Assembly: GCA_024699595.1 (NCBI GenBank) | Contig: JAILPG010000180.1 | Location: forward strand, 1 to 15,494 | Direction of reading: 5' to 3' | DNA length: 15,494 nucleotides | Origin: Lachnospiraceae bacterium | GTDB taxonomy: Bacteria > Bacillota_A > Clostridia > Lachnospirales > Lachnospiraceae | Shown: in pieces, positions 8,269-15,494 of the stretch | Layout of the letters: each line of letters opens with the position of its first letter | How positions within the stretch are numbered: the stretch's first letter is position 1 | Notes under the pieces: generated by a model | Databases searched by the model: none | What the model was told of the DNA's origin: nothing | The model's input: only the letters and a program-made list of their open reading frames with translations | Translations under genes and position numbers: made by a program

Positions 8269-8291
8269 TAACCTATTGACATAGTAGGTTA
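8269..8291. promoter_or_regulatory. 23-bp palindrome over the -35 box, candidate operator
   Basis: TAACCTA (8269-8275) and TAGGTTA (8285-8291) form perfect seven-base inverted arms with nine bases between their inner ends, so arm centres are 16 bases apart (about 1.5 helical turns). The -35 box TTGACA lies at 8276-8281, wholly inside the palindrome, so a bound dimer would block RNA polymerase. The size and layout resemble sites bound by Rrf2-family repressors such as the cysteine regulator CymR, which would suit an amino-acid importer, but the regulator is inferred, not shown. Confidence 0.6.
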
Positions 8292-8304
8292 ATGGTGTTA
8301 TAGT
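8276..8304 (+). promoter_or_regulatory. Sigma-A promoter of the dual-receptor ABC importer operon
   Basis: TTGACA (8276-8281), a 17-base spacer and TATAGT (8299-8304). Transcription should begin near 8311, leaving a short leader of about 29 bases and AGGAG seven bases before ATG 8340. The leader is too short for a riboswitch, so control is more likely by the palindrome overlapping the -35 box. Confidence 0.85.
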
Positions 8305-8339: not shown

Positions 8340-10022
8340 ATGAAAAAGAGATTTTTAATGGCACTATTATCCGGAATTCTTGCGGCGGGTCTTCTTTCAG
8401 GCTGTGCTGCAGGAGGAAATACAGCTTCTTCGGGATCCGATAAGGTCATAAAGGTTGCAGCATCAAGCGTACCGCATGCAGAGATACTTGCACAGGCTAA
8501 GGATATCCTTGCAGAGCAGGGTTATGATCTTCAGGTAACAGAGTTCTCGGATTATGTACAGCCCAACAACGTGGTTGAGTCCGGTGAGTTTGATGCCAAC
8601 TATTTCCAGCACATTCCCTACCTTGAGTCCTTCAATGACGAGCAGGGAACACATCTTGTAAATGCTGGCGGCATCCACTACGAGCCTTTCGGTATCTATC
8701 CCGGAACCAAGGCATCACTTGATGAGATAGCAGACGGTGATGTTATAGCACTTCCGAATGATACGACCAATGAAGCGAGAGCACTGTTACTGCTTCAGGA
8801 CAACGGCGTACTCACACTTAAGGATGGAGTAGGACTTACAGCAACGGTCAACGACATTACCGACAATCCGAACAACATCCAGTTTGAGGAGCTTGAGGCC
8901 GCTCAGGTTGCAAGAGTAAAGGATGAGGTAGCTTACGTAGTCCTTAACGGAAACTATGCACTCGAGGCAGGATTCTCGGTAGGCAAGGATTCCATCGCAT
9001 ACGAGAAGGCCGATTCCGAGGCTGCAAAGATCTACGTTAACGTTATCGCTGTTAAGGAAGGAAATGAGAATTCCGAAAAGATCAAGGCTTTAGTTGATGC
9101 TCTTAAGTCGGATGCAATAGTAAAATACATTAATGACACTTATGACGGCGCGGTTATTCCTTTTTCCGAAAGCTCTGATACAGCTGAGCCTGTGGCAGCA
9201 GCCATCGACAAGGATGCATTTGATTCACTTATCGCATCGGGCTCAGTGGCTGATGATGCCGAGATCGAGGCAAACTCATGGGCCAAGGCAGTTAAGGATG
9301 CAGGCGTGTTAAGAGTCGGCGGTACCAGGACCTCCTTCCTGTTCAGCCAGCTTGATGAGACCGATGAGGGCCTCAGAGGCTTTGATGCAGGTCTTTACCA
9401 GCTGCTTACAAGATATATCCTCGGAGATGAGAGCAAATTTGAGCTTACACAGGTTGACTCAAGCACACGTGAGTCAGTGCTTCAGTCGGATCAGGTAGAC
9501 GCTGTTTTTGCAACATATTCGATCACACCCGCAAGGGCTGAGGTCATCTCTTTTGCAGGACCTTACTATACATCACGCCAGGCAGTACTTGTAAAGGCAG
9601 GCAACACCGACGTTAACGGAATTGATTCACTGGCAGGAAAGATCGTTGCGACCCAGGCAGGCTCCACAGGCCCCGATATCCTTGCAGAGTATGCACCCGA
9701 GGCTGAGGTAGAGGAGTTTGAGACAGATCAGGAAGCACGTACGGCTCTTGAGCAGGGAAGAGTAGATGCATATGTAACCGACTACACGCTTTTACTCAAC
9801 TCGATCGTAAAGAATCCTGATGTCTATGAGATCTCAGGCGATGTATTCGGACCCGAGGACAATTACGGAATAGGACTTCCCCTTGATTCGGACGGAGTAG
9901 AGTTCGTAAACGGCTTCCTTAAGAAGATCATCGAGGACGGAACCTGGGAAAAGCTCTGGAAGATCTCCCTCGGAGACCGTACCGGAATAGAGACCGCACC
10001 TGCGGCACCTGTGGTTGAATAA
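8340..10022 (+). CDS. Fused dual substrate-binding lipoprotein: MetQ/NlpA domain + family-3 amino-acid-binding domain
   Basis: A 560-residue lipoprotein, about twice the size of a normal ABC receptor. Seen: a signal peptide with lipobox LLSGC and acylated Cys22; a MetQ/NlpA domain (about 35-276) with IKVAASSVPHAEIL, NYFQHIPYLESF and LPNDTTNEARALLLLQ; an acidic, Ala/Ser-rich linker (about 277-320); then a family-3 solute-binding domain (about 322-548) with GFDAGLYQLL, TYSITPARAEVISFAGPYY and GRVDAYVTDY. R399 and D481 sit where such receptors bind the ligand's alpha-carboxylate and alpha-amino group. From memory the second domain is closest to the glutamate receptor GluB. There is one signal peptide only and the frame is continuous. 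The permeases and ATPase that follow are of the polar-amino-acid type, not MetNI, so the MetQ half appears to have been recruited to a foreign transporter. Start: AGGAG seven bases before ATG 8340. Ligands are unknown. Confidence 0.92.
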   Translation: MKKRFLMALLSGILAAGLLSGCAAGGNTASSGSDKVIKVAASSVPHAEILAQAKDILAEQGYDLQVTEFSDYVQPNNVVESGEFDANYFQHIPYLESFNDEQGTHLVNAGGIHYEPFGIYPGTKASLDEIADGDVIALPNDTTNEARALLLLQDNGVLTLKDGVGLTATVNDITDNPNNIQFEELEAAQVARVKDEVAYVVLNGNYALEAGFSVGKDSIAYEKADSEAAKIYVNVIAVKEGNENSEKIKALVDALKSDAIVKYINDTYDGAVIPFSESSDTAEPVAAAIDKDAFDSLIASGSVADDAEIEANSWAKAVKDAGVLRVGGTRTSFLFSQLDETDEGLRGFDAGLYQLLTRYILGDESKFELTQVDSSTRESVLQSDQVDAVFATYSITPARAEVISFAGPYYTSRQAVLVKAGNTDVNGIDSLAGKIVATQAGSTGPDILAEYAPEAEVEEFETDQEARTALEQGRVDAYVTDYTLLLNSIVKNPDVYEISGDVFGPEDNYGIGLPLDSDGVEFVNGFLKKIIEDGTWEKLWKISLGDRTGIETAPAAPVVE

Positions 10023-10057
10023 ACAGATATGACCTTTAAACGGGACATATGTGAGTG

Positions 10058-10723
10058 ATGATTATGAGTATAGGAACGTTATTATCAGAATACGGTGACC
10101 GGTATATATCGGCACTTATAACGACCTGGAAGCTTACGGCATTGTCATTTATCGCGGCATTCGTGATCGGAGTACTGATCACGGTGCTGCGCATATGCCC
10201 GGTAAAGCCGCTTAGAAAGGCGGCGGAGTTTTACATACAGATATTTCGAAATATACCCGGAGCGGCACTTCTTATCGTACTTGTATATGCGCTCCCGTAT
10301 CTTGACATAGTTCTTTCTTATTTTTCCTGTGTCCTGCTTGCGACCACGCTCATACCCTCGGCATTCTGCTCGGAGTATCTGATGACCGGAATAAATGCGA
10401 TAGGCGCAGGACAGATCGAAGCGGCCAGATCTCTCGGACTTTCATTTTTACAGATAATAAAACGCATCGTCATACCTCAGGCGCTCAGATTAAGCGTGCT
10501 TCCGATGACCAACCTGCTCGTTGCAACCATGCTCACAACAGCACTGGCATCCCAGGTACCGCTTAAACCCACCGATCTTACGGGAATAGTCTCGTATATC
10601 AACACGCATGCCGTAGGAGGCGTGACGGCATTCATCATTTCGGCATTTCTGTATCTGGTGACCGCGGTCTTTATAGGACAGATTGGAAACCTGATAGATA
10701 AGAAGGTGAGGATCATACGATGA
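10058..10723 (+). CDS. Polar amino acid ABC transporter permease, GluC-like
   Basis: A 221-residue inner-membrane permease with about five membrane segments. Seen: the HisM/GluC-type N-terminal stretch ITTWKLTALSFIAAFVIG, then LRICPVKPLRKAAEFYIQIF with FRNIPGA, and the cytoplasmic EAA loop GQIEAARSLGLSFLQIIKRI followed by VIPQALR, which docks on the ATPase. The sequence up to VKPLR closely recalls GluC of the Corynebacterium glutamate importer. It forms a heterodimer with the next gene product. Start: GTG 10055, ATG 10058 and ATG 10064 are all in frame, none with a strong ribosome binding site; I take ATG 10058, and 10064 is an equal alternative. It begins 35 bases after the receptor gene and overlaps the second permease gene by ATGA. 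Confidence 0.9.
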   Translation: MIMSIGTLLSEYGDRYISALITTWKLTALSFIAAFVIGVLITVLRICPVKPLRKAAEFYIQIFRNIPGAALLIVLVYALPYLDIVLSYFSCVLLATTLIPSAFCSEYLMTGINAIGAGQIEAARSLGLSFLQIIKRIVIPQALRLSVLPMTNLLVATMLTTALASQVPLKPTDLTGIVSYINTHAVGGVTAFIISAFLYLVTAVFIGQIGNLIDKKVRIIR

Positions 10724-11535
10724 AGGGTACAGAACCGCTTATATATTCCGTGCTGTACGAGCCTCCGGGAAAAAGAGGCCGCACTGTCATAAATATCTGC
10801 ACCGCGCTGTCCCTGCTACTCATAGCAGGGCTCATCTGTGCCGTGGTAATGAGATTCTATGAGACCGGACAGCTTGATGCGAGATACTGGTCATTTTTCG
10901 TTAAGTGGACCACCTGGCGTTTCCTGTTAAACGGCCTTTTGGGGACGATGGAAGCATCCCTTGCGGCGGCTGTGTTTGCAATGATCTTAGGCTTTGCGAT
11001 GATGCTTATGCGGATAGGGAAAAACAGGGTGATAAATAAGATCGCAACAGGCCTTATCGAATTTACAAGAGGAGTACCGACGCTTCTGTTCATCTACTTC
11101 TTTTTCCTGGTGCTGCCCCAGTACGGGGTCAAGCTGCAGGCCATATGGAAGATATCCCTGCCCGTGGCTATCTCTGCATCGGGCGTGGTGGCAGAGGTAT
11201 TAAGATCCGGCATAAACGCGGTGCCGAAAGGACAGAGGGAGGCAGCTCTATCGCTTGGGCTCAGTGAAGCAAAGACACTATGGAAGATACTGATCCCGCA
11301 GGCTTTCAGGATAGTGATACCTGCGCTGATCGCGGAGCTTGTGATAGTCGTAAAGGACACGACCTTTGCCTATGTTGTGAGCTTCCCCGACCTCATGCAG
11401 AATTCGAAGGTCTTAATATCCAACTATGATGCCATGCTGTCGGTATACTTGGTCACGGCAGTCATATACATACTGATAAATTATATTTTAAACAGGATAT
11501 CCGCATTCTCTGCAGGCCGTATGCAGACAGGCTGA
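10720..11535 (+). CDS. Polar amino acid ABC transporter permease, GluD-like
   Basis: A 271-residue permease. Seen: a cytoplasmic N terminus, a first membrane helix (about 24-46), a loop with YWSFFVKWTTWRFLLNGLLG, then the core permease domain with EFTRGVPTLLFIYFFFLVLP and the EAA loop GQREAALSLGLSEAKTLWKI followed by LIPQAFR. The extra N-terminal helix and loop make it longer than its partner, as in GluD-type subunits. With the product of the preceding gene it should form the membrane channel of a type I importer. The start overlaps the previous stop in ATGA, so translation is coupled. Substrate class is inferred from the family only. Confidence 0.92.
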   Translation: MKGTEPLIYSVLYEPPGKRGRTVINICTALSLLLIAGLICAVVMRFYETGQLDARYWSFFVKWTTWRFLLNGLLGTMEASLAAAVFAMILGFAMMLMRIGKNRVINKIATGLIEFTRGVPTLLFIYFFFLVLPQYGVKLQAIWKISLPVAISASGVVAEVLRSGINAVPKGQREAALSLGLSEAKTLWKILIPQAFRIVIPALIAELVIVVKDTTFAYVVSFPDLMQNSKVLISNYDAMLSVYLVTAVIYILINYILNRISAFSAGRMQTG

Positions 11536-11598: not shown

Positions 11599-12372
11599 AT
11601 GAGCGAAACACCGATTATCGAACTGAAAAAAGTAAATAAGCATTTCGGATCCCAGCATGTACTTAAAGACATAGATCTGACTGTAAGCAGGGGAGAAGTG
11701 GTCGTCATAATAGGTCCCTCAGGTTCCGGCAAATCAACACTTTGCCGTACAGTAAACAGACTTGAGACGATAGATGATGGTACAATACTGATAGACGGAG
11801 TACCGATCCCTGATGAGGGAAAAGAGCTTGCAAAAATGCGTGCACGGATCGGCATGGTATTTCAGTCATTCAATCTTTTCAGCCATAAGACGGCGCTTGA
11901 AAACGTGATGCTCTCACCGATGGATGTTCTGAAGATCCCGAAGGCTCAGGCTAAGGAAGAGGCCATGGCGCTTCTTAAAAGAGTGGGAGTGGAAGAACAG
12001 GCCATGAAGGTTCCGGCAAAGCTTTCGGGCGGACAGCAGCAGAGAGTCGCCATAGCAAGGGCTCTTGCGATGCATCCCGAGGTGATCCTTTTTGACGAGC
12101 CCACCTCGGCACTTGACCCCGAGATGATAGGAGAGGTGCTCGATGTAATGACCAAGCTTGCAGAGGACGGAATGACAATGCTCATCGTCACGCACGAGAT
12201 GAACTTTGCAAGGCATGTCGCAAGCCGCGTGGTATTCATGGATGGCGGTGCGATAGTCGAGGAAAACACTCCGGATGTTTTCTTTGACTGCCCGAAAACG
12301 CAGAGAGCAAAAGACTTTCTGGATTCGCTTGATTACGGAAACAGACAGACAGGAGGCTATGATGTCCGGTGA
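11599..12372 (+). CDS. Amino acid ABC transporter ATP-binding protein, GlnQ type
   Basis: A 257-residue ATPase subunit with every canonical motif: Walker [10 protein letters not shown] (about residues 39-47), Q-loop [17 protein letters not shown], signature [15 protein letters not shown], Walker [16 protein letters not shown] and switch His in [21 protein letters not shown] is typical of polar-amino-acid importers. It drives uptake through the two permeases encoded upstream and works as a homodimer. GGAGG lies 11 bases before ATG 11599. The 63-base gap before it contains TGATATTAT (11571-11579), an extended -10-like sequence without a good -35, so extra internal transcription is possible. The stop overlaps the next start as GTGA. 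It has no C-terminal ACT/NIL regulatory domain such as MetN carries. Confidence 0.95.
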
Positions 12373-13148
12373 AAACTGTAGGGATCATAGGTGACAGAAC
12401 TACCTTTCGGAGAAATCATAATTACTATGATGCCGCGGAAGCGTGCGGCGTAAAAACGGTTCCGCTTATGAAGGGTACGTGGCGCGACAGCATGGGCATT
12501 ATAGACGGGATCATAATACCCGGCGGAGGTGATTTAAATCCCGCTCTGTACGGTGAACAAAACCACGGAAGCGTGGATATTGATGATGAGCTTGATGAGT
12601 TGGAGACGGCGGTGCTTGATCATGCAGTAAAGGCTCATCTTCCCGTATTTGGGATATGTCGCGGATTCCAGCTTATAAACGTATATTTCGGAGGGAGCCT
12701 GATACAGCATATAGATGATCACAGGCATCATGTCTGGATCGACCGCGATACCGACAATGCACACGATGCCGTGGCGGATCAGGGCTCCTTCATATACGGC
12801 CTCTATGGTAAAAAGACGATACGGGTAAACAGCGCCCACCATCAGGCGGTAAAAAAAACAGGTACGGATCTTATACCTGTTCTTTACAGTGATGACGGCC
12901 TGATCGAAGCCTTTGTGCACTCATCTCTTCCGATCATCGGTGTGCAGTTTCATCCCGAGAGGATGTGCCTAAAAAACAGAAGAGCCGATACCGTCAACGG
13001 CCTGAAGCTATTCGAATACTTCACAAATGAACCGCTAACCCCGTCCCGGGGGTCCGTTTCGGGAGAGTCTTTTAGTAAGTGCAAAAAGGAGCAATGCCGA
13101 AAAAAGAGGCATCATAAACCCGATTATCGTGGATATGCCGGGCTTTGA
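12369..13148 (+). CDS. Peptidase C26 / gamma-glutamyl hydrolase-like class I amidotransferase
   Basis: A 259-residue cytoplasmic enzyme of the PuuD/peptidase C26 group. Seen: [15 protein letters not shown] (residues 48-62), the nucleophile elbow [20 protein letters not shown] (94-113) with C97, [10 protein letters not shown] (154-163), and the catalytic His-Glu in GVQFHPERM (191-199; H195, E197). Relatives hydrolyse gamma-glutamyl bonds, for example gamma-glutamyl-GABA or folate polyglutamate. The GTG start overlaps the ATPase stop (GTGA), and AGGAGG lies about 12 bases upstream; no better in-frame start exists. Being the last gene of an amino-acid importer operon suggests it processes the imported compound. 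Odd: the recognisable domain ends near residue 220 and the basic, Ser/Lys-rich tail 222-259 is antisense to the end of the convergent protease gene. Confidence 0.88.
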
Positions 13149-13679
13149 TACCAAAAGGTTGTACAGACCGTGGAAGATCGTGGCGATGGACACGCCGATC
13201 GCAATAGACGAAAAGTTAAGTACCATATGGCGCTTTGCAATAAGAAACCATAGAGAAAGCGCTAAAATGCTAACGATATGCATGACACCGACCGCAAAGC
13301 CGCGGATCAGGATATATCCGAGGTTCTCGGCACCGGCTGTTAAGATATAGCAGCAGTTTTCAAATGTTGCAAAGCCGGCACCGACGGCAACCGCAAGCAT
13401 TGTCTGGCGGCGCTCTTCGGGGACGATCAGTATCGCAAAGAGCCCGAGCGGCATAAGCTTCATTATCTCTTCGATAACGGGAGCAAGAAATACCGATGTC
13501 TCATTATCCGACCAGCCGATGGCACCACCGATAAAACTGCTTATATACGCAGAGAGCAGACATACTCCCATTCCAAGCAGGAATGCGGAGAGGTACCGTC
13601 TTACTTCACCGCGTACGAATAAGAGGGAGACGATAAGCGGGATCGCTATGCATATCAGGATGTTTTCCGCATAGATCAT
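13035..13679 (-). CDS. prsW: PrsW-family intramembrane metalloprotease
   Basis: A 214-residue polytopic protein with about seven to eight membrane segments. Seen: the PrsW motifs in order, APVIEEIMK (residues 66-74, the EExxK motif), GAGFATFEN (100-108), GVMH with H134, and FHGLYN with H170. These Glu and His residues are the proposed zinc and catalytic ligands. PrsW in Bacillus subtilis makes the first cut in anti-sigma factor RsiW; relatives belong to the wider CPBP/glutamic-protease-like superfamily. The substrate here is unknown; no sigma or anti-sigma gene is in the window. The start overlaps the upstream gene as ATGA and has AGGGAGG eight bases upstream. Its 3' end runs 114 bases into the convergent C26 gene, so each constrains the other. 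Confidence 0.87.
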   Translation of the reverse strand: MIYAENILICIAIPLIVSLLFVRGEVRRYLSAFLLGMGVCLLSAYISSFIGGAIGWSDNETSVFLAPVIEEIMKLMPLGLFAILIVPEERRQTMLAVAVGAGFATFENCCYILTAGAENLGYILIRGFAVGVMHIVSILALSLWFLIAKRHMVLNFSSIAIGVSIATIFHGLYNLLVSKPGISTIIGFMMPLFSALLLFALTKRLSRNGPPGRG

Positions 13680-14461
13680 GACGTAACCTCCCTTTTTAAC
13701 GAGAAATACATTAAAAGGAATGAGATCGACATACCCAGATTTGCCATGTTATAGAACATCCCGGCACTCATATACATATAGGTGAAACTCCATGCCGTTA
13801 CGATAAACGACAGACAAATACATGTCTTTGGATCCTCTTTTTTATATAGAGAAAGGATCGATCTGATCATGAAATACAATTCAACTATACTTAACAGAAT
13901 GTAAGCGGCAGTATCAAAAACAGATGCCATAGCCTCTGAAACATGGAAAGTCGCGACATTTGCCGCTATTATAACCACACACAAAAGACCGAGCGCTATC
14001 CACACCGGACGGGGGAACGCCCCGGTCTCTTTTGCGATCCTTACGAGGTTTATGTAAAAATATCCGAGCATGATACCGGTAACGATATCCTGCATCCATT
14101 CACCGGACCATGCGATCCAGAGAGCAACATTGGCAGCCGTGAAAATGACCGCAAATACGATCTCCCATTTGGCTGATCTGTAAGATGTGGTATGAATTGA
14201 CGAAAGGATCGTCGCAAGCGACAGAAACATCGCCCACTCAGCCATCTCATTTGCGGCAAACGGCATACGCTGCATAGGATATAAAAGGTCGTAGGCAAGC
14301 CAGTACAGACCGGAGAGAAGGAGACCGGCTGTAGCAAATGCAAACAGGATCATCTGCAGGGTCCGCCCTTCCTTTATCGCCGTTTTATACAGGCTGATCA
14401 ATATATACACTGTAACTATGTCACATATCAGTGTGGGGATGTAATCATTGATCGATCTCAT
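13676..14461 (-). CDS. Multi-pass membrane protein of unknown function, paired with PrsW
   Basis: A 261-residue very hydrophobic protein I do not recognise. Seen: about eight to nine membrane segments (roughly residues 9-26, 36-58, 74-92, 99-118, 124-142, 152-171, 180-202, 214-232, 236-255), short loops, several Trp/Tyr at membrane edges and a final basic SLKREVTS. There is no soluble domain, no HAMP, kinase or protease motif, and no transporter signature. The gene precedes prsW on the same strand and overlaps it by four bases, so the two are made together. It could be a partner, substrate or regulator of the protease, or a membrane sensor; none of these is shown. ATG 14461 is the only good start in range, with a weak GGGAT ribosome binding site. 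Confidence 0.75.
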   Translation of the reverse strand: MRSINDYIPTLICDIVTVYILISLYKTAIKEGRTLQMILFAFATAGLLLSGLYWLAYDLLYPMQRMPFAANEMAEWAMFLSLATILSSIHTTSYRSAKWEIVFAVIFTAANVALWIAWSGEWMQDIVTGIMLGYFYINLVRIAKETGAFPRPVWIALGLLCVVIIAANVATFHVSEAMASVFDTAAYILLSIVELYFMIRSILSLYKKEDPKTCICLSFIVTAWSFTYMYMSAGMFYNMANLGMSISFLLMYFSLKREVTS

Positions 14462-14829: not shown

Positions 14830-15494
14830 ATGAAGAACAAGGAAATGTTAAAGAGGATATCCGTAAAATGTGTGGCAGCCATAATGGCAGCAGCTGTTGC
14901 AATGTCTGCGTTTGGAGCCGCTTTGGTGACATCCGGCATAACTACTACAGTTTATGCGGCAAACTATGATACTATCGATGATGTTCCTGAGGATAACGAC
15001 GGGCACAGAAACCTTGCCGCAGATGACAGTCTTACCACAAATACATCCACAATACATGAGAACAACGGTACCATCGGAACGAATGCTCCCGGTGCTGTAG
15101 TTGAGGTAAACAACAATATAGTTACGGACAATTACGGTGATGTTGCAAATCAGGGCAGCGGAAGCGTAGGAACCAATCACGTCGGCGGCACTGTATCAGG
15201 CACGGGACGCATCGTTGAGAATTATGGAAATGTAACCGGCGGAAGAGTTACTGACAACTATGCAAGCGGAACGGTTACAGGCGGGGATTCCAGAATAACC
15301 GGTGATAATTTCGGCACGGCAAATAATATAGGACAGGTAGAAAACAATTATGACAACGAAACCGATGCAAATGACAAAAATACTTATTCAAGCGGAACCG
15401 TTAACGAGAATACAAAAGATAATGTACAGGTAGATAACAACTACGGCGGTACATTGGGAGCCGGAGTAGATGCAACAAATCCTAGTCTTGATGA
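14830..15494 (+). CDS. Secreted Asn/Gly-rich repeat protein, probable cell-surface protein (3' end outside window)
   Basis: The frame is open from ATG 14830 to the window end, giving the first 221 residues. Seen: a long signal peptide (basic N terminus MKNKEMLKRISVK, hydrophobic core to about residue 40, probable cleavage at VYA-AN after residue 43), an acidic linker (about 46-66), then loosely periodic repeats built on [D/E]-N-[Y/N/F]-G followed by Thr/Val: ENNGTIG, DNYGDV, ENYGNV, DNYASGTV, DNFGTA, NNYGGT. Such short Asn/Gly/Val-rich repeats usually fold as parallel beta-helices or beta-rolls in secreted adhesins or surface-layer-associated proteins; that is inference. There are no Cys residues after the signal peptide. 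GAGAGG eight bases upstream fixes the start. Function unknown. Confidence 0.8.
   Translation, partial: MKNKEMLKRISVKCVAAIMAAAVAMSAFGAALVTSGITTTVYAANYDTIDDVPEDNDGHRNLAADDSLTTNTSTIHENNGTIGTNAPGAVVEVNNNIVTDNYGDVANQGSGSVGTNHVGGTVSGTGRIVENYGNVTGGRVTDNYASGTVTGGDSRITGDNFGTANNIGQVENNYDNETDANDKNTYSSGTVNENTKDNVQVDNNYGGTLGAGVDATNPSLD

Follow-up and report, generated by a model that had tools for sequence, protein, structure and literature searches.

Type I ATP-binding cassette (ABC) importers are usually described with one or several receptors per permease. In GlnPQ of Lactococcus lactis (structure 6h30), a type I importer of the polar-amino-acid class, two substrate-binding domains lie in each chain, both belonging to one family and both fused to the permease. 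In the MetNI-MetQ importer (PDB 7mbz, 6cvl) the receptor is a separate protein. As for regulation, a CymR-type regulon, known in Bacillus, has been proposed in Clostridium acetobutylicum with an Rrf2-family regulator whose targets include cysK and an ABC transporter for amino acids (PMC3828012).

The stretch analysed here (the window) comprises 15,494 nucleotides from a Lachnospiraceae bacterium (contig JAILPG010000180.1, assembly GCA_024699595.1) and encodes, at 8340..10022, a lipoprotein in which a MetQ/NlpA domain is joined to a family-3 amino-acid receptor domain (SBP_bac_3; the C half). Like GlnPQ it places two receptor domains in one chain; unlike GlnPQ, it draws them from two families and carries them on a separate lipoprotein, with the permease genes standing apart at 10055 and 10720. 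Lachnospiraceae lipoproteins such as L105 and L068 combine the same two Pfam families in the reverse order, and a literature search of one library found no paper on NlpA/SBP_bac_3 fusions in either order. The fusion is real and conserved; it belongs to the known general class of tandem receptors and is rare in the form seen in the window. The explanation that we favour, at a probability of roughly 55%, is that it is a functional, sulfur-regulated tandem receptor whose MetQ half serves MetNI and whose C half serves the permeases of its own operon; the ligands, and the importer served by each half, are inferred.

A single frame with two receptor domains

One unbroken frame of 560 residues runs from an ATG at 8340 to a stop at 10022, behind a plausible GGAG ribosome-binding site, and its N-terminus holds one lipobox, LSGC with C22 (site and lipobox both assigned by eye). 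It is divided as follows.

8340..10022, + strand: fusion lipoprotein, MetQ/NlpA domain plus family-3 amino-acid receptor (Pfam, NCBIfam and structure model)
8340..8447, + strand: signal peptide, lipobox (C22) and spacer (aligns with MetQ leaders; low model confidence at residues 1-32)
8448..9164, + strand: MetQ domain, residues 37-275 (shares 96% identity with a separate metQ in a related genome, loci L002/L107)
9165..9209, + strand: flexible joint, about residues 276-290 (model confidence below 50 at 275-283)
9210..10019, + strand: SBP_bac_3 half, residues 291-560, with an N-terminal helical extension; Glu/Asp-receptor-like

Both halves match solute-binding families in Pfam above the cut-offs, PF03180 (Lipoprotein_9, MetQ) at residues 37-274 with 282.4 bits (cut-off 27) and PF00497 (SBP_bac_3) at residues 324-539 with 61.5 bits (cut-off 26.4). 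This bears out the first-pass annotation, which had described one frame with one lipobox and two complete receptor domains, of MetQ type and polar-amino-acid type, on one lipid anchor; R399 and D481, which we take to be the ligand-anchoring residues of the family, were likewise found in the C half where it had placed them. Other parts of that description went too far. An AlphaFold2 model has two folded domains (mean predicted local distance difference test, pLDDT, 85.6; predicted template-modelling score 0.54), with stretches of pLDDT below 50 at residues 1-32 and 275-283 only and helices predicted at 291-299, 306-310 and 313-321. The IDKxAFDxLIASG... stretch after the joint also occurs in stand-alone relatives of the C half and is therefore part of that half. 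In the model the flexible joint is thus confined to about residues 275-290, and the 40-residue flexible linker that had been claimed shrinks to this segment, the remainder being helical and shared with stand-alone relatives. Similarly, the two binding folds had been called unrelated. The halves have no detectable profile relation (hhalign probability 1.3%, from shallow profiles), but each matches solved solute-binding proteins, both align jointly to the SBD1-SBD2 tandem of GlnPQ (6h30), and PF03180 and PF00497 presumably belong to one Pfam clan.

A second metagenome-assembled genome (isolate RUI498, locus L001) also has this fusion, at 92% identity from end to end, and there it is flanked alike, with ispD upstream, a permease downstream and the same gene order. 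The junction is shared by the two assemblies and the operator described below begins 70 nucleotides upstream of the ATG in both, despite a nucleotide identity of 84% (16% of bases differing) in the MetQ domain. Two protein clusters, P0003 and P0004, hold further MetQ-first fusions, 83% identical to that of the window (known from protein only). Between the window and L001 the nonsynonymous and synonymous divergences (NG86, with dS near saturation) are dN 0.030 and dS 1.22 in the MetQ domain, a dN/dS of about 0.025, and dN 0.018 and dS 0.86 in the SBP_bac_3 domain. Compared with 20 stand-alone relatives of each half, the window retains 133 of 134 near-invariant columns in MetQ and 157 of 158 in the C half, although these relatives are close and many such columns need not be functional. 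The divergences and columns indicate that both halves are under strong purifying selection and are both kept up.

Promoter, putative operator and sulfur genes

Two elements lie immediately upstream of the fusion.

8270..8290, + strand: putative Rrf2/CymR-like operator AACCTATTGACATAGTAGGTT, spanning the -35 hexamer (matrix score 30.0)
8276..8304, + strand: sigma-70 promoter TTGACA-17-TATAGT, overlapped by the operator (11/12 consensus, TG before the -10)

The fusion promoter is the best of 8 matches found, against 6.8 expected by chance. The sulfur-type operator had no place in the first-pass annotation. A pattern modelled on the window's site was scanned in four genomes and gave 13 matches at two mismatches or fewer (the mismatch split of the backwards control is not given). 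Four of these precede metY genes, two precede Rrf2 regulators and four precede fused receptors, namely that of L001 and three of the reverse-order type (G124, G361 and G006); the others lie before a glutamate-cysteine ligase-like gene, before a pyridoxamine kinase gene and at L097 1738, where the gene was not identified. The genome of L001 has three such sites only, before metY-cysK, before an operon headed by an Rrf2 regulator and before the fusion. As in the CymR regulon, the putative operator is common to the receptor and genes of cysteine metabolism, among them cysK, together with an Rrf2-family regulator and an amino-acid ABC transporter; the comparison of operators covers the genomes of this study.

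NCBIfam models support most of these gene names in L001's genome, with MetY at 622.6 bits (cut-off 495.1), CysK at 451 (350.95), Rrf2, encoded at L128 14372-14818, at 86.3 (73.3) and a ThiF-type protein at 276.8 (275.25). The pyridoxal phosphate (PLP) enzyme behind the Rrf2 gene is sulfhydrylase-like and falls under its cut-off, as do two desampylase-like genes. MetY and Rrf2 genes in the other three genomes were named by the likeness of their first residues to those of L001's genome. The glutamate-cysteine ligase-like protein (L133 3499-4755) is below its cut-off and the pyridoxamine kinase (L131 4320-5144) above; the presence of the same operator pattern ahead of these two genes suggests that thiol and PLP supply belong to the regulon. 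In L001's genome a family 2A encapsulin shell gene (L128 9955-10914; 491.6 bits, cut-off 380) separates the two groups of sulfur genes that carry the operator. The site at L097 1738-1758 is a second strong operator, about 1.6 kb ahead of the one that precedes a reverse-order fusion.

Seven sites outside the fusions, at genes for sulfur enzymes, regulators and a glutamate-cysteine ligase-like protein, were combined into a scoring matrix. On this matrix the window scores 30.0 and L001 scores 32.0, against a maximum of 16.2 in 470 mononucleotide-shuffled upstream regions, and the fusion operator is the sole site in the window at or above 16.2. Across 1.07 Mb of loci, 18 sites reach 16.2 compared with 2 for the reversed matrix, and 11 reach 20 compared with 0. 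The 18 comprise three at the fusion (the window, L001 and its duplicate L108), eight in 7 of 14 reverse-order loci, four at 4 of 22 stand-alone C-half loci and three at metQ loci, the last making up more than half of the loci scanned; the 11 comprise three at the fusion (one a duplicate record), six in reverse-order loci and two at stand-alone C-half operons. Two of the records scanned, L107 and L108, repeat stretches of L002 and L001, and the 58 upstream regions scored as stand-alone metQ include L107 and also L073, which is a lone metQ preceded by a long open frame rather than a reverse-order fusion. The motif includes the -35 box, and a -10-like hexamer, better in some cases than in others, follows at a spacing of 16-18 in the 15 sites inspected. 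No operator reaching 16.2 was found at the metQ locus of L001's genome (L002, L107), so the promoter did not arrive with metQ.

Riboswitch control of the fusion operon was considered and dropped, the Rfam scan having given no family at gathering score in the window and three tRNAs only in 14 related loci.

Reverse-order fusions and the origin of the MetQ half

The first-pass annotation called the fusion unusual, which holds for the window's form and fails for the pairing itself. PF03180 exceeds its cut-off in 212 of the 397 genomes of L001's family group, and among the matches listed at least 14 fall in open reading frames (ORFs) of 547 residues or more, including the MetQ-first fusion of G001; counts of long ORFs in the family, C-half and genus-group surveys are lower bounds. 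The other 13, and likewise L068, all have SBP_bac_3 first and MetQ second, and a 431-residue ORF examined alongside the 13 (G272) is a lone MetQ. Among 37 genomes of L001's genus group, at least 17 have, judging by match rows, a reverse-order ORF of 554-592 residues, and the window form was seen in L001's genome only, among the matches listed. Of the best 120 protein clusters listed for the junction of L105, 117 hold both domains, whereas 4 of 120 listed for the window's junction hold both domains MetQ-first, those of the window and L001 included. The C-half family (at least 73% identity) occurs in 5 of the 397 family genomes and is fused in L001's only, among the matches listed. A wider scan of 391 class genomes (three candidates scored per genome, E 1e-60) matched both halves in one ORF in G184 and G573 and partly in G794, and also turned up a 521-residue ORF in G790. 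The joining of NlpA to SBP_bac_3 is thus not unusual per se, and the MetQ-first form with a Glu-like partner is rare. Since relatives with the domains swapped are so frequent within this bacterial family, the design appears to be genuine and recurring, not a curiosity.

Reverse-order fusions differ from the window's in having a cysteine-receptor-like domain first: the solved structures nearest to the SBP_bac_3 half of L068 are the cysteine receptors 1xt8 (E 9.7e-84) and 2yjp (E 7.6e-81), and the SBP_bac_3 halves of the other 13 share 58-80% identity with that of L068. They also differ in their neighbours, since a MetN-like and a polar-amino-acid-transporter-type (PAAT-type) ATPase are both present in 12 of 14 loci. 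The exceptions, on the stretches examined, are L093 (PAAT-type only) and L103 (MetN-type only). ATPase types were set by identity to the window ATPase, 47-56% as against about 39-44%, the least certain call being L099 (fragmentary frames at 43% and 49%, a truncated one at 47%). In L105 the fusion is accompanied by a MetN-like ATPase (344.2 bits, cut-off 499.7), MetI (222.3, cut-off 212), a PAAT permease (TIGR01726, 95, cut-off 42.2), a GlnQ/TcyN-like ATPase and a second permease with no NCBIfam match at E 1e-25; the MetN-like, MetI and PAAT genes lie immediately behind it. The pairing of both ATPases in 12 of 14 loci suggests that MetQ still needs MetNI. The reverse form is common and, with both importers encoded nearby, a better test case than the window form, and the loci concerned (L105 3739-9263, L068, L093-L100 and L102-L106) are arguably of greater interest. 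Other tandem receptors were seen in passing. P0070 (593 residues) fuses a receptor that by eye resembles the cysteine-like half to the window's C-half family, while P0005 (528) and P0007 (437) are MetQ-MetQ tandems, the first copy in P0007 being truncated by eye, and may be assembly duplications.

The C half is found unfused in 22 related loci and heads a permease-permease-ATPase series in 21 of them; in the 22nd, L012, the contig stops after the first permease. These operons (L003, L005, L007, L027 and others) share the gene order of the window and have a C half 74-86% identical to the window's, but their receptors lack a MetQ part and have an N-terminal leader of their own. The occurrence of the C half alone in these loci argues that MetQ was added in front of a resident receptor. 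It looks as though a metQ copy, intact to its last residues, was set before the receptor of a polar-amino-acid-type import operon, the receptor losing its own leader and one signal peptide and anchor being kept. In the genome of L001 the only close copy of the C half that the search found is the one in the fusion. That genome also has a separate metQ, which lies on a different contig next to a MetN-like gene and MetI and has different DNA upstream.

In the MetQ tree the MetQ halves of the window and L001 cluster with the separate metQ of L001's genome (SH-aLRT 95), and those of P0003 and P0004 cluster with L019 and L020. The MetQ part of P0004 matches the stand-alone MetQ of L020 at 289 of 292 residues, leader included, and P0003 matches L019 at 264 of 292. 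A single origin of the four MetQ-first fusions was considered and rejected in the form of one MetQ clade (p-AU 0.017). The four C halves form two pairs, which come together as a single clade in 14% of the trees of a 200-replicate bootstrap that had not converged. The C-half tree was built from 237 rows thinned to 72 at 95% identity, and L081-L092, L107 and L108 (repeats or short pieces) were left out of both trees. The trees are compatible both with two fusion events at an identical point and with a single event followed by gene conversion. In L001's genome the fused MetQ and the separate one differ by a dS of 0.97, which speaks against a recent conversion in its lineage. L019, L020 and L024 come from genomes, of completeness not given, in which the search found no fusion and no C half above 35% identity. 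A broader proposal, to which we would give somewhat less than even odds, is that one lipid-anchored, sulfur-regulated protein bridges two ABC importers, with MetQ docking on MetNI and the family-3 domain on a PAAT permease pair, that such proteins arose at least twice in opposite orders, and that gene conversion, or fusion more than once, has renewed the MetQ part from the chromosomal metQ.

Host operon and possible roles of the two halves

The fusion is followed by four genes.

10055..10723, + strand: permease A, polar-amino-acid (HEQRo) class (TIGR01726, 59.1 bits, cut-off 42.2)
10720..11535, + strand: permease B, polar-amino-acid (HEQRo) class (TIGR01726, 69.8 bits, cut-off 42.2)
11599..12372, + strand: ABC ATPase, GlnQ/TcyN-like (NF007027, E 7.2e-98, 326.7 bits, under the equivalog cut-off of 379)
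12369..13148, + strand: peptidase C26/gamma-glutamyl hydrolase-like protein with GICRG (C97) and HPE (195-197) motifs, which we take to be catalytic (PF07722, 149.4 bits, cut-off 20.5)

A PF00497 receptor and PAAT-class permeases are thus encoded in one operon, in agreement with the first-pass annotation. In Pfam the permeases match BPD_transp_1, to which MetI also belongs. A C26-like gene (at least 33% identity) is on the stretch in 12 of the 22 stand-alone loci and downstream in 9.

If the fusion is a sulfur-regulated tandem receptor, scarcity of sulfur amino acids would release a CymR-like Rrf2 repressor from the operator overlapping the -35 box and turn the operon on. The C half would then supply the operon's permease pair with its ligand, which may be Glu/Asp-like or a gamma-glutamyl compound, as the conservation of the operon suggests, and the C26 hydrolase may split gamma-glutamyl compounds inside the cell. 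The MetQ half would take methionine to a MetNI encoded elsewhere, and the tether would put two receptor types on one anchor, both made with the same timing. We count in support of this reading the domains above curated cut-offs, the synteny shared by two assemblies together with P0003 and P0004, the purifying selection and kept columns, the place of the stand-alone C half at the head of import operons, the near-exact operator sites, the ATPase pairs of the reverse-order loci and the MetN-like and MetI genes of L001's genome. A two-headed receptor of differing families, encoded close to both importers in the reverse-order relatives, would allow the idea of one anchored receptor feeding two transporters to be tested directly. 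It also points to a sulfur-uptake strategy of Lachnospiraceae hidden under generic names, such proteins being entered in databases only as 'transporter substrate-binding domain-containing protein' or 'YaeC family lipoprotein'.

Several results weigh against this explanation. MetNI is absent from the window operon, which leaves the MetQ half without a linked partner, and since L001's genome has two PF03180 genes, the fusion and the separate metQ, MetNI there already has a receptor. The fused MetQ half misses both NCBIfam MetQ subfamily cut-offs (175.4 against 374 and 172.7 against 228.85), as does that of L105 (fused halves alone were scored), and both MetN-like proteins scored fall below the MetN cut-off (344.2 and 336.7 against 499.7). 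The Rrf2 regulator, unlike that of a CymR regulon proper, falls short of the CymR model (74.2 against 195). At three mismatches or fewer the operator pattern gave 19 matches in the four genomes against 13 for the backwards pattern, and 4 against 4 in L001's genome; the weak tail is therefore uninformative and only near-exact sites count. Moreover, it was the window-derived pattern that selected the sites in the matrix, so the score is not independent of the finding, and the informative part is which genes carry operator sites. Among stand-alone C-half operons only 4 of 22 score above the shuffle maximum, and 10 of 22 above the 99th percentile. Lastly, the ligand of either half is inferred, and by sequence the C half is nearest to solved receptors that take Glu or Asp and not sulfur compounds.

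The C half might instead be a receptor for a sulfur compound, for example a gamma-glutamyl-cysteine peptide, in which case the operon would be a sulfur importer even without MetQ. We consider this doubtful. Receptors with bound Glu or Asp score highest for the C half (5eyf 25.4, 6h1u 24.9), 5eyf is well ahead of the cysteine receptor 1xt8 by sequence (E 5.4e-32 versus 5.1e-19), and in 12 of the 22 stand-alone operons no site exceeds the 99th percentile of the shuffles.

Rather improbable, in our estimation, is an arrangement like that of GlnPQ, in which both halves dock on the operon's permease pair and one importer takes methionine and a second ligand. It would account for the single importer encoded in the window operon and suits both the alignment of the model to the 6h30 tandem and the BPD_transp_1 permeases, which are like MetI. 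Yet the MetQ half keeps the columns of its own family (1 of 134 changed), with no trace of re-tuning to a new permease, and in 12 of the 14 reverse-order loci MetN-like and PAAT-type ATPases stand together beside the fused receptor, L093 having no MetN-like gene on its stretch. Competition of two domains for docking at one translocator is described for GlnPQ (PMC8025302). The first-pass annotation had raised the idea of one importer with two ligand types, and also that of one domain sensing while the other delivers, for which the analysis gave no evidence.

We give little credence to the idea that the MetQ part has dropped out of transport and passively lends its leader and anchor or serves as a spacer. 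The separate metQ in L001's genome and the rarity of the window form would fit, but a spacer would drift, whereas the MetQ domain retains its conserved columns at a dN/dS of about 0.025, and the absence of an operator at the metQ locus means that metQ did not bring the promoter. Finally, an assembly join of metQ to a receptor operon is very unlikely: near-identity of a MetQ half to a stand-alone metQ (as in P0004 and L020) is the type of repeat able to mislead assemblers and L001 is itself a metagenome assembly, but the two assemblies share junction, flanks and operator despite their divergence, the separate metQ lies on another contig with other upstream DNA, so that two breakpoints would have to recur in both, and reverse-order fusions are abundant.

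Elsewhere in the window, the complementary strand encodes an energy-coupling factor (ECF) transporter substrate-specific component at 528-1229 (PF12822) and, at 13035-14461, a PrsW-like intramembrane protease adjoining a protein without a Pfam match. At 14830-15492 begins what looks by eye like a secreted protein rich in N, G and T, which continues past the end of the window.
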